From assembly GCA_017481575.1 (NCBI GenBank), contig JAFUPA010000039.1:1-57135 (forward strand): a stretch of DNA of 57,135 bases. The letters run 5' to 3'. Numbering within the stretch: the stretch's first letter is position 1; each line of letters begins with the position of its first letter. The notes beneath the pieces were generated by a model. It ran no database searches, was not told the DNA's origin, and saw only the letters and a program-made list of their open reading frames with translations. The position numbers were made by a program, and so were the translations under genes. This stretch comes from Clostridia bacterium (GTDB lineage Bacteria > Bacillota > Clostridia > Oscillospirales > Acutalibacteraceae). Below are positions 54,195-57,135 of the stretch, piece after piece.

Positions 54195-54406
54195 TTTTAA
54201 TTTGTCTGGATGTTTCAAATTCGCACAAACTACCTTTGTGTGCGTAGGGGCGTCTATCAGACGTCCGCCGATTTTGTGTTGATTTTGACGGACGACCAAT
54301 GGTCGCCCCTACTCGCTCAACTGTTAATCGTGCGTTGCCCTCCTTGCCTAAAGAAGTGTGGCACGGCGAAGCCGTGACGGGAGGGTTGTTATAAAAATCA
54401 ACGCAG
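54195..54406. repeat. Dispersed intergenic repeat, copy B
   Basis: About 212 bp nearly identical to 11224-11435. It contains a 69-bp element with GTAGGGGCG/CGCCCCTAC ends at 54244-54312 and the GCCCTCC...GGGAGG tail. An open frame on the minus strand encodes the same peptide-like string as copy A and is not counted as a gene. Bases 54407-54471 hold nothing further. Confidence 0.85.
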
Positions 54407-54877: not shown

Positions 54878-54918
54878 AAAAAGAAGTAACTTTTGTTCGC
54901 AAAAGTTACTTCTTTTTT
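54877..54918 (+). terminator. UUCG-loop terminator of the tRNA array
   Basis: A 19-bp perfect stem (54877-54895/54900-54918) capped by TTCG, the 3' arm ending in a T-run: a very stable terminator. Confidence 0.95.
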
Positions 54919-54945
54919 TATCCAAGTTTAAGGCTCGATATATCA

Positions 54946-54974
54946 TTGAATACTACAACAATTTATGATATAAT
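54946..54974 (+). promoter_or_regulatory. Promoter of the small-gene run
   Basis: TTGAAT (54946-54951), 17-bp spacer, TATAAT (54969-54974), about 20 bases before the 46-residue gene. Confidence 0.75.
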
Positions 54975-54995
54975 CTTACTAAGGAGAGTGATAAT

Positions 54996-55136
54996 ATGAA
55001 CGAAGAAATGGATGCCTGCAAATTGATTAAAGACCTTGCTGAAGAAAATCAGACAAGAAAAATTCTTGAAATGATTAACGATTGCAAGAGCTTAGAAGAA
55101 GCGAAGGTAAAAATAAAAGCCTTACTTAATAAATAA
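54996..55136 (+). CDS. Small acidic-basic helical protein, 46 residues
   Basis: A short frame with an excellent ribosome site (AAGGAGAG) and a clear promoter. The protein is charged and almost entirely helical: a Glu/Asp-rich N-terminus, a T-R-K-I-L-E-M-I middle and a K-V-K-I-K-A-L-L end. No family is recognised. The neighbours (small XRE protein, hydrophobic peptides, integrase remnant) suggest a mobile-element origin, perhaps a small regulator. It may be the first gene of the transcript that leads into the structured RNA at 55162. Confidence 0.7.
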   Translation: MNEEMDACKLIKDLAEENQTRKILEMINDCKSLEEAKVKIKALLNK

Positions 55137-55161
55137 GCAAGGCTAAACCAAAACACCAAAA

Positions 55162-55229
55162 GGGAACGATACTTGCCATCGCTTCCCAAGGTAGTTAGAT
55201 GATACCATAAAACAGATAAAAAGGCAAGT
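55162..55229 (+). ncRNA. Structured leader or small RNA with possible pseudoknot
   Basis: A 9-bp stem with one bulged C (55162-55170/55178-55187) carries a 7-base loop ACTTGCC (55171-55177). That loop is exactly complementary to GGCAAGT at 55223-55229, so a pseudoknot or long-range pairing can form. A small GGTA/TACC hairpin (55190-55193/55203-55206) lies between. It has no coding frame. It sits directly upstream of the 43-residue hydrophobic peptide and could be its leader or a separate RNA. No family is recognised. Confidence 0.5.
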
Positions 55230-55253
55230 AAAAATAAGGTGATATAGCAATCG

Positions 55254-55289
55254 AAGACAGGGGATGATTCTGTGTTTTTCCCTTGTCTT
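55254..55289 (+). promoter_or_regulatory. Hairpin covering the start of the 43-residue peptide
   Basis: An 11-bp stem with one G-U pair (55254-55264/55279-55289) and a 14-base loop. Its 5' arm contains the purine-rich GGGG and the A of the start codon, so it would block ribosome access. Such masking is a hallmark of type I toxin mRNAs. Confidence 0.55.
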
Positions 55290-55395
55290 TAAAAAAAAAT
55301 CTACCAAGCCTAACTACAAAGAATACATAATACAAGGCTTGATAGATTTAACTGTAGGTTCGCTGTTAATCCTAATCGGTAATCTTATCGACTAA
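55264..55395 (+). CDS. 43-residue hydrophobic peptide, possible type I toxin
   Basis: Starts M-I-L-C-F and has a basic stretch (K-K-K-S-T-K-P-N-Y-K, about 10-19). One hydrophobic helix of about 20 residues follows (I-I-Q-G-L-I-D-L-T-V-G-S-L-L-I-L-I-G), then a short polar end. The size and plan match membrane-acting type I toxins and some phage-borne small peptides. The ATG at 55264 is the only in-frame start, but its GGGG site is adjacent and masked by a hairpin, and AAGGTGAT at 55236 is too far, so the true start is uncertain. A run of nine A within the frame could slip. It belongs to the locus with the antisense promoter at 55440-55468. Confidence 0.5.
   Translation: MILCFSLVFKKKSTKPNYKEYIIQGLIDLTVGSLLILIGNLID
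55297..55349 (+). other. Long-range inverted repeat within the peptide mRNA
   Basis: AAATCTACCAAGCCT (55297-55311) pairs with AGGCTTGATAGATTT (55335-55349) with one mismatch, enclosing 23 bases. It adds to the folded character of this mRNA. Confidence 0.6.
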
Positions 55396-55403
55396 AACTC
55401 AGC

Positions 55404-55436
55404 GGTGCAAGGGGAACTTACCTTCCTCTTCGCACC
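55404..55436. other. Hairpin at the 3' end of the peptide mRNA
   Basis: GGTGC/GCACC outer stem (55404-55408/55432-55436), internal loop, then a 7-bp stem AGGGGAA/TTCCTCT with one G-U pair and a 6-base loop. On the plus side an AT-rich stretch follows without a strong T-run. The predicted antisense RNA would start within its right arm. Confidence 0.55.
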
Positions 55437-55439
55437 TAA

Positions 55440-55468
55440 ATCTTACAATATTTTTATATCATTGTCAA
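55440..55468 (-). promoter_or_regulatory. Antisense promoter facing the peptide gene
   Basis: TTGACA (55463-55468), 17-bp spacer, TAAGAT (55440-55445) on the minus strand. The predicted start near 55433 would give an RNA complementary to the 3' region and coding sequence of the 43-residue peptide. Confidence 0.6.
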
Positions 55469-55475
55469 TACAATT

Positions 55476-55571
55476 ATGAAAGAGTTTATTATTAGCTTAG
55501 GTTTATTTTTAGTTTGTTTCGGTGTTATAAAAGTAATAATTGGATTTATAAAAAAGAGAAGAGGAAAATAA
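55476..55571 (+). CDS. 31-residue single-helix membrane peptide
   Basis: MKEF then a hydrophobic helix (about 5-25) and a basic K-K-R-R-G-K tail, positive-inside style. No Shine-Dalgarno is visible, so translation is unproven; it might be leaderless or chance. It ends one base before the start of the XRE gene. A second small hydrophobic peptide next to the first is notable. Confidence 0.35.
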   Translation: MKEFIISLGLFLVCFGVIKVIIGFIKKRRGK

Positions 55572-55572
55572 T

Positions 55573-55743
55573 ATGACAATAAAAGAATTGCGCCAAGCCA
55601 CAGGTATGACACAAAAGGATTTTGCTGAATATTTCGACATATCCAAAAGGGCTGTTGAATCTTGGGAAGGTGGGAAGAGAAACTGTCCCTCGTACCTTTT
55701 GGAATTGATGAAATATAAACTTGAAAAAGAAAACTTAATCTGA
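55573..55743 (+). CDS. Minimal XRE-type helix-turn-helix protein
   Basis: A 56-residue DNA-binding protein made almost only of a Cro/C1-type domain. L-R-Q-A-T-G-M-T-Q-K-D-F-A-E-Y is helices 1-2, and S-K-R-A-V-E-S-W-E-G-G is the recognition helix and turn. Y-L-L-E-L-M-K-Y-K-L follows. Proteins of this size and sequence type are common beside toxin-antitoxin modules and in prophages and ICEs. AGAGGAA lies seven bases before the ATG. It may control the small-gene run here. Confidence 0.85.
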   Translation: MTIKELRQATGMTQKDFAEYFDISKRAVESWEGGKRNCPSYLLELMKYKLEKENLI

Positions 55744-55772
55744 ATTAGTAGTTGTTTTGTAGGTGTGTTTTG

Positions 55773-55922
55773 ATGAAAGTTAAATATATTGGAGAAACTT
55801 ACGGAGATTTAACAAACGGAAGTATATATGAATGTCTTGGAGAAGAAGTGGACTGTTATAGAATTATAGATGAATCAGAGGAAGATTACTTGTATCCGAT
55901 TGTTGAATTTGAAATAGTCTAA
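55773..55922 (+). CDS. Small SH3-like protein, 49 residues
   Basis: A short, acidic, beta-rich protein. The string K-V-K-Y-I-G-E-T, then L-T-N-G-S-I-Y-E-C-L-G, R-I-I-D-E-S-E-E-D-Y-L-Y-P and F-E-I-V is typical of a small barrel family frequent in phages and gut Firmicutes, with no assigned role. Spacing of AGGTG to the ATG at 55773 is good. It is 29 bases after the XRE gene and may share its transcript. Confidence 0.75.
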   Translation: MKVKYIGETYGDLTNGSIYECLGEEVDCYRIIDESEEDYLYPIVEFEIV

Positions 55923-55969
55923 GAATAAATATTCTGTTTTGTTTATCTGAAAAAAGTGTTGCTTACCTC

Positions 55970-55998
55970 TTTACAAACTGAAAACACTATGCTATAAT
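55970..55998 (+). promoter_or_regulatory. Promoter of tRNA-Val(GAC)
   Basis: TTTACA (55970-55975), 17-bp spacer, TATAAT (55993-55998), 13 bases before the tRNA. Confidence 0.82.
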
Positions 55999-56010
55999 AG
56001 CAGGGCACTT

Positions 56011-56087
56011 GAGGGTGTAGCTCAGTTGGTCAGAGTACTTGCTTGACATGCAAGGGGTCGGTGGTTCGAGCCCACTCATCCTCACCA
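56011..56087 (+). tRNA. tRNA-Val (anticodon GAC), integration target
   Basis: A 77-base cloverleaf with GAGGGTG/CATCCTC acceptor (one G-T pair), anticodon loop TTGACAT and encoded CCA. An integrase remnant follows on the same strand 204 bases later, the usual position for an element inserted at a tRNA 3' end, so the 3' part of this gene is the likely attachment site. Confidence 0.93.
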
Positions 56088-56093
56088 CTTATA

Positions 56094-56137
56094 AAATTCC
56101 TGAAACCTTTGTTTTATGAGGTTTTTCAGGAATTTTT
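56094..56137 (+). terminator. Terminator after tRNA-Val(GAC)
   Basis: AAATTCCTGAA...CCT (56094-56108) pairs with AGGTTTTTCAGGAATTT (56119-56135) with a two-base bulge, followed by more T. The stretch 56138-56290 is AT-rich and holds no gene. Confidence 0.82.
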
Positions 56138-56290
56138 TCTTTTTCTTGGTGAAATAAAAAAGAAAGAAAAAGGATAAGGTCCACTAAAAAAGTCCATTTT
56201 TACTAATTAAATGCATTAAAAAGGGATTTTTGAAAGAAATTCTTCTTAGTTACTTTTGAGTGTTTTTTGAAAAAGGAAAGGAAGAAGGAC

Positions 56291-56521
56291 ATGGCTTCGG
56301 TTTATAAAAATATCAAAAAAGGAAAGGTTGTATCGTATAAATTACGTGCATTTTTAGGAAAAGACGAAAAAGGAAAACAAGTATTTAAATGTAAAACTTG
56401 GATAGTTCCTGAAGGAATGAATGAACGAAAAGCAGCAAAAGAAGCTATCCGTGAAGCGGAGAATTTTGAAAAAGAATGCAGAAAAAGATTAAATGAAAAC
56501 TCATTAATAAACGCGAATTAA
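56291..56521 (+). pseudogene. Truncated tyrosine integrase (arm-binding domain only)
   Basis: A 76-residue frame that looks like the N-terminal arm-type DNA-binding domain of a phage/ICE tyrosine recombinase: M-A-S-V-Y-K-N-I-K-K-G-K start, a three-strand sheet with G-K-D-E-K-G-K-Q, then a charged helix (R-K-A-A-K-E-A-I-R-E-A). The core-binding and catalytic domains (R-H-R-Y) are absent, and the frame stops 12 bases before the converging primase fragment. It sits just beyond tRNA-Val. Start at 56291 follows GGAAGAAGGAC. Most likely the leftover of an integrase whose rest was deleted. Confidence 0.7.
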
Positions 56522-56533
56522 GCGTTCTATCAC

Positions 56534-57135
56534 TTACTGTGACAATATAAGCTTTGTCGCAATGCTGTCGGATGACTTTTCATATTCTGCAGTCGCTTTA
56601 GTTACAGCTTCAGGTTCCTTGAGTCCTTCTTTTTGATATTTCAAACAACCCTCAATCAGCCAAGAGAGAATCACAGAACGATAATAGTCGGATGCAAATA
56701 GCTCTCGTAATGACCTATCCATTTTCCCCGATTCTTCTCCAAAAGATTCTTCGAAAGGAATTACTTTAACTCTGTTTGATTTAAAAATAGTTAAATCGTT
56801 AATCTGAGGGAGAGAATTAGCCGCCCAATACATCGAGAAATTGGGAGTAAATTCAAAAGAGTTCTGACGCAGGAAACGGGCGGACATTGTATCACGACCG
56901 GTAAGCTTTTTAATTTTCTGAACATCTAATTTCATCATTTTCTCAGGCTCTGAAACACGAAGAAATCTGCATCCTGCAAGACGAGCTATATCTTCAGACG
57001 GCGCAGAAGCATTGTTGAACTTCTTAATTGCAAATGTTTCGGGCTCGGCGGAGTTTGCATAGTCCCCCAAAGCTCCGGATACAGCTTCAAGAAGGGTGCT
57101 TTTTCCATTTCGGGTTTTCTCACCATAGAAAATCC
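56534..57135 (-). CDS. P4/D5-type phage primase-helicase, partial
   Basis: The C-terminal part (about 200 residues visible) of a superfamily 3-like helicase of the phage P4/D5 type, open through the right edge of the window. At the edge the Walker A reads G-E-K-T-R-N-G-K-S-T. Then come a Walker B/sensor region (R-F-L-R-V-S-E-P), W-A-A-N-S-L-P (sensor 1) and R-V-K-V-I-P-F (Arg finger region). The end, S-I-A-T-K-L-I-L-S-Q, comes early; these proteins usually continue with a winged-helix tail, so it may be cut. Replication protein of an integrated element together with the integrase remnant. Confidence 0.85.
   Translation of the reverse strand, partial: IFYGEKTRNGKSTLLEAVSGALGDYANSAEPETFAIKKFNNASAPSEDIARLAGCRFLRVSEPEKMMKLDVQKIKKLTGRDTMSARFLRQNSFEFTPNFSMYWAANSLPQINDLTIFKSNRVKVIPFEESFGEESGKMDRSLRELFASDYYRSVILSWLIEGCLKYQKEGLKEPEAVTKATAEYEKSSDSIATKLILSQ

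Follow-up and report, generated by a model that had tools for sequence, protein, structure and literature searches.

A prophage-derived, probably antitoxin-only relic of a type I toxin-antitoxin-like phage family between two tRNA genes of a Clostridia bacterium

The locus described here lies in an insertion of about 1.05 kb between the genes for tRNA-Gly(gcc) and tRNA-Val(gac), within the window (the whole stretch of DNA analysed, 57,135 nucleotides of a Clostridia bacterium contig). In two genomes of the same genus, G002 and G014, the gap between these tRNA genes measures 59 bp and 359 bp, respectively. The insertion harbours a 46-aa ORF with its own promoter, two small peptides (A and B), a 56-aa HTH protein and a 49-aa ORF, and it appears to be a prophage-derived passenger module. 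The features considered are as follows.

54919..55965, no strand: the insertion as a whole, flanked by tRNA-Gly(gcc) and tRNA-Val(gac); boundaries approximate, from the gaps in same-genus G002 and G014
55220..55263, plus: place of the candidate sense promoter and ribosome site, as located by relatives; degraded here (best promoter score 7.5, p=0.65)
55253..55290, plus: strong stem-loop around GGGG and ATG, predicted by folds; window-specific
55264..55395, plus: 43-codon ORF of peptide A; homologous in DNA to phage L093 from codon 10 (55291) on
55291..55433, minus: predicted antisense RNA of about 143 nt with three stem-loops, ending at the U9 tract 55299-55291 (fold z -4.6; covariance model; covariation)
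55297..55349, minus: stem-loop 3 of the antisense RNA, an intrinsic terminator (fold; covariation helix 5)
55362..55403, minus: stem-loop 2, opposite the C-terminal codons of A (fold; covariation helices 3 and 4)
55404..55436, minus: stem-loop 1 (fold; covariation helices 1 and 2)
55440..55468, minus: antisense promoter TTGACA-17-TAAGAT (sequence; conserved place in relatives)
55476..55571, plus: peptide B, 31 aa, with a predicted membrane helix and a basic tail; B-like ORFs in relatives
55573..55743, plus: small HTH protein, 56 aa (PF01381, 31 bits against a cut-off of 23)

The 46-aa ORF (54996-55136) has a good promoter of its own (54946-54974, plus strand; TTGAAT-17-TATAAT with TG before the -10) and a ribosome site, and its codon score stands at z 3.3 against shuffles; it gave no Pfam or NCBIfam match, and tblastn found nothing like it in the 18 member loci compared. 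Opposite its 3' end, the minus-strand segment 55227-55118 carries another promoter (TTGCCT-17-TATCAT, with TG) and, downstream of it, a stem-loop and an intrinsic terminator of 11 bp (92-nt fold z -4.4); it possibly specifies a second antisense RNA. Outside the insertion, pieces of 54300-54406 some 50-110 bp long have copies at numerous sites of this genome and of same-genus genomes. The stretch 56291-57070, just after tRNA-Val(gac), holds a 76-aa ORF without a library match, which we take to resemble an integrase N-terminus, and, on the minus strand, the end of a P4-type phage/plasmid primase (TIGR01613, 110 bits against a cut-off of 108.7); it would represent the edge of a second element.

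A previous, sequence-only reading of this DNA had proposed a type I toxin-antitoxin locus from features that were all recovered: the 43-codon ORF at 55264-55395, a stem-loop hiding GGGG and ATG (at about 55253-55290 in folds), the promoter TTGACA-17-TAAGAT on the minus strand (55468-55440) and a second hairpin at 55404-55436, which corresponds to stem-loop 1 of the predicted antisense RNA. It had missed the terminator, a 15-bp stem (55349-55297) followed by nine U inside the peptide A ORF; the arms of this stem coincide with codons KST(K) and (L)ID(L) of the peptide, and the U tract with its poly-lysine codons. The 152-nt antisense segment folds with z=-4.6 (matched by 1 of 200 shuffles), and among minus-strand promoters within 140 nt 3' of the ORF, the best one has p=0.013 when compared with dinucleotide shuffles. 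On its own, the promoter motif says less than promoter and terminator together: bare TTGACA-17-TANNNT occurs three times in the window against 0.71 expected (at least three in 5 of 100 shuffles), while TTGACA with a -10 hexamer (at least 4 of 6) and seven T within 260 nt is found at this place only on both strands of the 57-kb window, a uniqueness due to the 15-bp stem and the U9 at 55299-55291. Scanned against Rfam, the window and six member loci yielded only tRNA at the gathering threshold, and up to E=5 no match in the window region overlapped 55291-55433; a known riboswitch or small RNA was rejected for want of an Rfam match, and a plasmid copy-control antisense RNA because no rep gene was seen among the window ORFs. 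On the plus strand, 55418-55431 (loop and 3' arm of stem-loop 1) is complementary at 12 of 14 positions to the HTH ribosome site (55558-55571); such pairing might attenuate translation of the HTH gene, or it could be a chance match of pyrimidine-rich with purine-rich stretches.

The peptide A ORF by itself is not above chance in codon use, scoring -0.23 per codon, which is below the 5th percentile (-0.10) of genuine gene pieces (mean 0.18, n=342), with spurious ORFs averaging -0.29 (sd 0.19, n=69). Its descent from a coding gene is indicated by its relatives, which also led to the rejection of a chance ORF, and by nothing else. The window aligns with phage L093 at 72.8% identity over 246 nt, the alignment starting at codon 10 of A, and 5' of this homology its promoter and ribosome site are degraded. 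The best ribosome-site match reaches 3 of 5 positions, GGGG abuts ATG with zero spacing, and the L093 start codon has, as judged by reading the alignment, no in-frame counterpart in the window. A promoter, ribosome site and start from which a toxin gene could be expressed were not found in the window copy.

The first relative was reached through the antisense RNA, since the 43-residue query alone found none by tblastn or patterns. With window peptide A, tblastn gave no relative in phages, plasmids or 391 class genomes, and its matches in 13 other genomes of a set of 98 relatives (E up to 1) were rejected as chance-like, being pieces of long frames and unlike sequences. Degenerate DNA patterns (viral and genome contigs) and 8-residue seeds of the peptide likewise yielded no relative; DNA searches with the window sequence gave nothing in phage and plasmid records and, across the 391 class genomes, only stretches of 22-44 bases in nine other genomes. 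A covariance model (R1) was made for the minus-strand RNA with the window as its single sequence; at E up to 1 it matched 3 genomes out of the 199 others in the family sample. In the best match (G481, E=3.5e-5), the opposite strand carries a 41-aa ORF aligning with peptide A, in the order holin-like gene, A homologue, B-like peptide and HTH; the remaining matches were G556, a confirmed member, and G517.

A two-protein profile then matched five of 398 genomes, window and G481 among them, and wider profiles added seven viral contigs and later one more complete viral member and two cut ones. Viral members L112 and L113, new but cut at the contig end, were not counted, and of nine viral loci, L091 and L106-L110 were repeats of contigs already counted. 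In the class sample, the wider profile matched 12 of 381 genomes including the window, of which four were judged chance and dropped: G261 and G428 (after inspection of L102 and L105) and G441 and G236 (frames of 233 and 224 residues). Two HTH relatives, G069 (L066) and L069, were rejected as members on account of their other contexts. A DNA search with one member added L114 (MT835475.1, 63221-75432) from an unannotated 80-kb human faecal phage record, where the module lies on the strand opposite to genes for a transposase, a DNA transposition protein, terminase and portal; a tblastn search of phages with two relatives as queries, and one of plasmids with a single relative, gave no match. The resulting comparison set comprises 20 loci, including the window, from phages, prophages and genomes of the window's class. 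In all 20, the plus strand keeps the A frame open across the conserved part, which in G374 is preceded by an in-frame stop, and two genomes that had not contributed to a 10-member profile were detected with it at E about 1e-12. The proposed pair of small membrane peptide and antisense RNA is, in terms of sequence, conserved in 19 further loci with the antisense promoter at the corresponding place; relatives devoid of both this promoter and the hairpin had been named as grounds for abandoning the proposal, which by this rule is not refuted, as the relatives keep the promoter.

The best promoter on the minus strand is found at +59 to +87 from the A stop in 18 loci of 19 (the L092 site being listed at +114), and 14 of 19 have an exact TTGACA. 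Compared with shuffles, the promoter is supported across 15 dereplicated loci including L114 (Fisher p=7e-20), individually with p<0.05 in 13 of the 15; L090 (p=0.09) and G253 (p=0.05) are weak, and the near-duplicates L088, L089, G432, L092 and L111 were excluded from the 14- and 15-locus tests. Among the 19 non-window loci, R1 picks out the antisense strand, at the place expected by homology, in 15, two of which (G481 and G556) it had already met beforehand; it missed G374, L089, G387 and G253 and gave two weak off-target matches. Folds of the antisense RNA reach z -3.6 to -7.6 in 19 loci and are more stable than the sense strand in 16 of 19 (for example -41.6 against -33.0 kcal/mol in L114), the sense strand being the more stable in G771, G387 and G253; for this comparison the antisense start of L092 was placed by analogy with L090. 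The sense strand likewise folds better than its own shuffles (z -2.2 to -8.6).

Covariation was assessed on 12 aligned antisense RNAs (alignment A6, 12 of the 20 loci, omitting L086 (G374), L088, L089, L092, L096 (G432), L100 (with G387 on its reverse strand), L101 (G253) and L111). Of the cells, 88.9% are paired, and 37 of 48 pairs have changed on both sides; on all five measures, 0 of 500 shuffles equalled the observed values, and slid versions reached at most 51.9%. These figures lean towards structure because A6 was fitted to the model, without the four loci that R1 missed. Helix 5, the terminator stem, has 96.4% of cells paired and 9 of 15 pairs changed on both sides, one pair occurring as T-A, C-G, G-C and A-T. 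G-U cells valid on the antisense strand only number 59 against 12 on the sense strand only; for the terminator stem the strand-specific count is 31 to 0 over 19 loci, in windows picked by Watson-Crick pairs only, an asymmetry that amino-acid constraint may explain in part. In a permutation test independent of A6, the terminator arms of 14 loci form 11.4 of 12 pairs with their own partner against 9.7 across loci (0 of 10000 permutations). The arms are read as K-P/S-T-K and L-x-D-L codons in the relatives.

On the sense side, peptide A has 30-44 residues across the family, with a basic start in most and mostly a DLIVG-like motif. Its best 17-residue Kyte-Doolittle mean is 1.96-2.57 (20 loci), and that of peptide B 2.14-3.20 (12 scored), so that both are predicted to be small hydrophobic peptides with a membrane helix. 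The net charge of A is 0 to +9 before the helix and -1 to +1 after it (20 loci), while B has a net positive tail in 10 of the 12 scored. A B-like hydrophobic ORF, by a criterion without shuffle control, is present in 18 of 19 loci and in L114 too. An HTH-type protein directly follows B in 9 of 19 loci (assigned by eye, except in the window); in L087-L089 its place is taken by a small protein, presumably excisionase-like, which in L087 had no PHROG match. Window peptide A matched nothing in Pfam, NCBIfam, PHROGs or PADLOC, in agreement with the earlier view that it is not one of the TxpA or BsrG families; no A or B peptide scanned with Pfam or NCBIfam exceeded a curated cut-off, and the strongest hit that any A or B peptide gave in the four libraries was that of one B peptide to DUF308 (E=0.0036, below cut-off).

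A sense promoter scoring at least 10 is present in 16 of 19 loci (absent in the window, G374 and G398), and a GGAGG-like ribosome site with 4 or 5 of 5 matches in 16 of 19. The promoter spacer is palindromic in most, at most 9 of 300 shuffles reaching the observed score in 11 of the 16 loci; the palindrome is weak in L087 (291 of 300), L088 (77), G253 (47), G556 (43) and L089 (29). Such a spacer fits an operator which the small DNA-binding protein of the operon would bind. The bacterial copies G374 (L097/L086) and G398 (L098), which lack the sense promoter, keep the antisense promoter and the terminator stem, and G374 has a stop in the A frame just before the conserved part. The masking of the start region proposed from the window divides: a local hairpin of such strength occurs in the window alone (start-region dG -18.5, with the 19 others ranging from -0.7 to -12.2), but longer mRNA folds, computed without a shuffle control, predict a mostly paired start codon for 16 of 18 relatives and a mostly paired ribosome site for 8 of them, which leaves room for a translational block, or masking, through other pairings.

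Layout, promoters, structure, terminator and strand bias are conserved at the level of sequence, and the locus appears to comprise an RNA gene with its own promoter and terminator opposite a peptide gene. In complete copies, a sigma-70-type promoter, in most palindromic between the hexamers, would drive an operon of A, B and often a small DNA-binding (HTH) protein, which probably represses it. An opposing promoter in the A-B gap would yield an antisense RNA of about 110-160 nt with three stem-loops over nearly all of A, ending inside A where lysine-rich codons serve as the U tract and K-P/S-T-K and L-x-D-L codons as the stem arms. This RNA would pair with the A mRNA, beginning at the stop codon and reaching back to about codons 4-10, and would block or destroy it, as SR6 does with yonT; since it stops short of the ribosome site, degradation or an elongation block is the favoured mode. 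Unsilenced A would insert into the membrane and harm it, and B is perhaps a second toxin.

The window copy appears intact on its antisense side (promoter, stems and terminator) and degraded in the promoter, ribosome site and start of the peptide, so that an antitoxin-only relic is most likely. The type I proposal is therefore upheld for the family as a conserved pair but not for the window copy as a working module: missing the sense promoter and ribosome site, the latter is likelier a toxin-silent relic with a kept antitoxin RNA. On balance, we favour with reasonable confidence the reading that the window carries a prophage-derived, probably antitoxin-only relic of an undescribed phage family resembling type I toxin-antitoxin systems.

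The alternative of an antisense-controlled phage regulatory or membrane-peptide cassette, acting in lysis timing, superinfection exclusion or a lysogeny switch with A and B non-toxic at natural levels, is held to be unlikely. It would account for the operator-like palindromes and adjacent small DNA-binding protein in many copies, for the one copy that follows a holin gene and for the charge of A lying on the other side of the helix from that of known type I toxins; however, Gram-positive type I systems are usually built in just this way, from a prophage-borne small membrane peptide facing a structured antisense RNA (PMC6563280, PMC7699646), and the genes adjoining the five members tested (terminase, portal, transposase, tail and holin) show packaging, transposition, tail or holin neighbours alike, as expected of an independent cassette.

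We regard as quite improbable a second alternative, in which the window holds a rewired working pair, with A transcribed from 54946-54974 through the 46-aa gene and its translation restrained by the window-specific hairpin. The lack of spacing between GGGG and ATG, codon use in A resembling that of spurious ORFs, the end of L093 DNA homology at codon 10 and the parallel loss of the sense promoter, with the antisense one kept, in G374 and G398 argue against rewiring, even though the upstream promoter (TTGAAT-17-TATAAT with TG) is good, no plus-strand terminator-like site was reported in 54878-56300, the A ORF is still open and the start codons of relatives are often predicted to be paired too. 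A stand-alone minus-strand small RNA opposite a chance ORF, to which the codon statistics of the A ORF alone and the placement of promoter, stems and terminator all on the minus strand would lend themselves, is refuted for the family by the A frame open in the conserved part of 20 loci, the two outside genomes found by the 10-member profile (E about 1e-12) and the sense promoter and ribosome site in 16 of 19, and is very improbable overall, though it could hold for the decayed window copy.

Beyond the relic reading, a broader and distinctly tentative proposal is that of a widespread, unnamed phage-borne type I family whose DNA is doubly constrained (codons of A doubling as the antitoxin terminator, with arm residues changing together, KPTK going with L-V/I-D-L and KPAK with L-A-D-L), and whose toxin-less host copies keep the antitoxin RNA, maybe as a trans guard against phages with the same toxin. 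If the peptides are toxic, phages and prophages of the window's class would carry a type I family for which no library scanned has a model. The family lends itself to studying the evolution of a toxin ORF that shares its bases with an antitoxin terminator, and to asking if hosts gain protection from relics that retain the antitoxin alone.

TxpA/RatA and BsrG/SR4, to which the sequence-only reading had likened the architecture, share with the module a 3' overlap of toxin gene and antisense RNA. They also share an antisense RNA with a small membrane toxin in prophage-like elements (PMC6563280). Here, however, the overlap takes in nearly the whole ORF, a second peptide and a repressor-like gene stand in the operon, and A and B have no Pfam or NCBIfam match above curated cut-offs. 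Known Gram-positive type I toxins carry their charge in a C-terminal tail (PMC6563280, PMC7699646); the charged C-terminal part after the helix that marks TxpA/BsrG and the C. difficile toxins was not found in peptide A. The Fst/Ldr family (PF13955; PMC7472228) resembles the module in being a small membrane toxin with an RNA antitoxin in Gram-positive bacteria, but PF13955, present in the library, matched none of the four A peptides scanned up to E=1 and gave no match in the window's genome. A text search of the literature, incomplete in coverage, found no description of the present family.

The C. difficile pairs CD0977.1-RCd11, CD0904.1-RCd13 and CD0956.3-RCd14 resemble the module in a location in prophages, peptides of 34-47 aa, antisense RNAs with their own promoter and, in part, no prior annotation (PMC7699646). 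Their toxins have a hydrophobic N-terminus and a lysine-rich C-terminus, the reverse of peptide A as compared by description only, and their toxicity has been shown (PMC7699646), whereas toxicity is a prediction for the peptides here.

The nearest arrangement found in print is, instead of TxpA/RatA or BsrG/SR4, yonT-yoyJ/SR6 of the B. subtilis prophage SPbeta, which shares the prophage location, sigma-A type promoters, two small peptides on one polycistronic transcript with no typical terminators downstream, and an antisense RNA that starts between the two peptides and covers the 3' part of the first (PMC5848175). The two-peptide operon with an antisense start in between is predicted here too, by layout only. 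The differences are that YonT is a 58-aa toxin and peptide A has 30-44 aa (a comparison by description only), and that SR6 extends for 30-40 nt into the 5' part of yoyJ (PMC5848175), with the predicted antisense start here lying upstream of B. Furthermore, the antisense RNA here would span nearly the whole of A and terminate within it, and an HTH protein and a palindromic promoter are often present. SR6 promotes the degradation of yonT mRNA (PMC5848175), and the best reading of the complete module is that it would act as type I systems do, with yonT-yoyJ/SR6 as its closest counterpart in layout.
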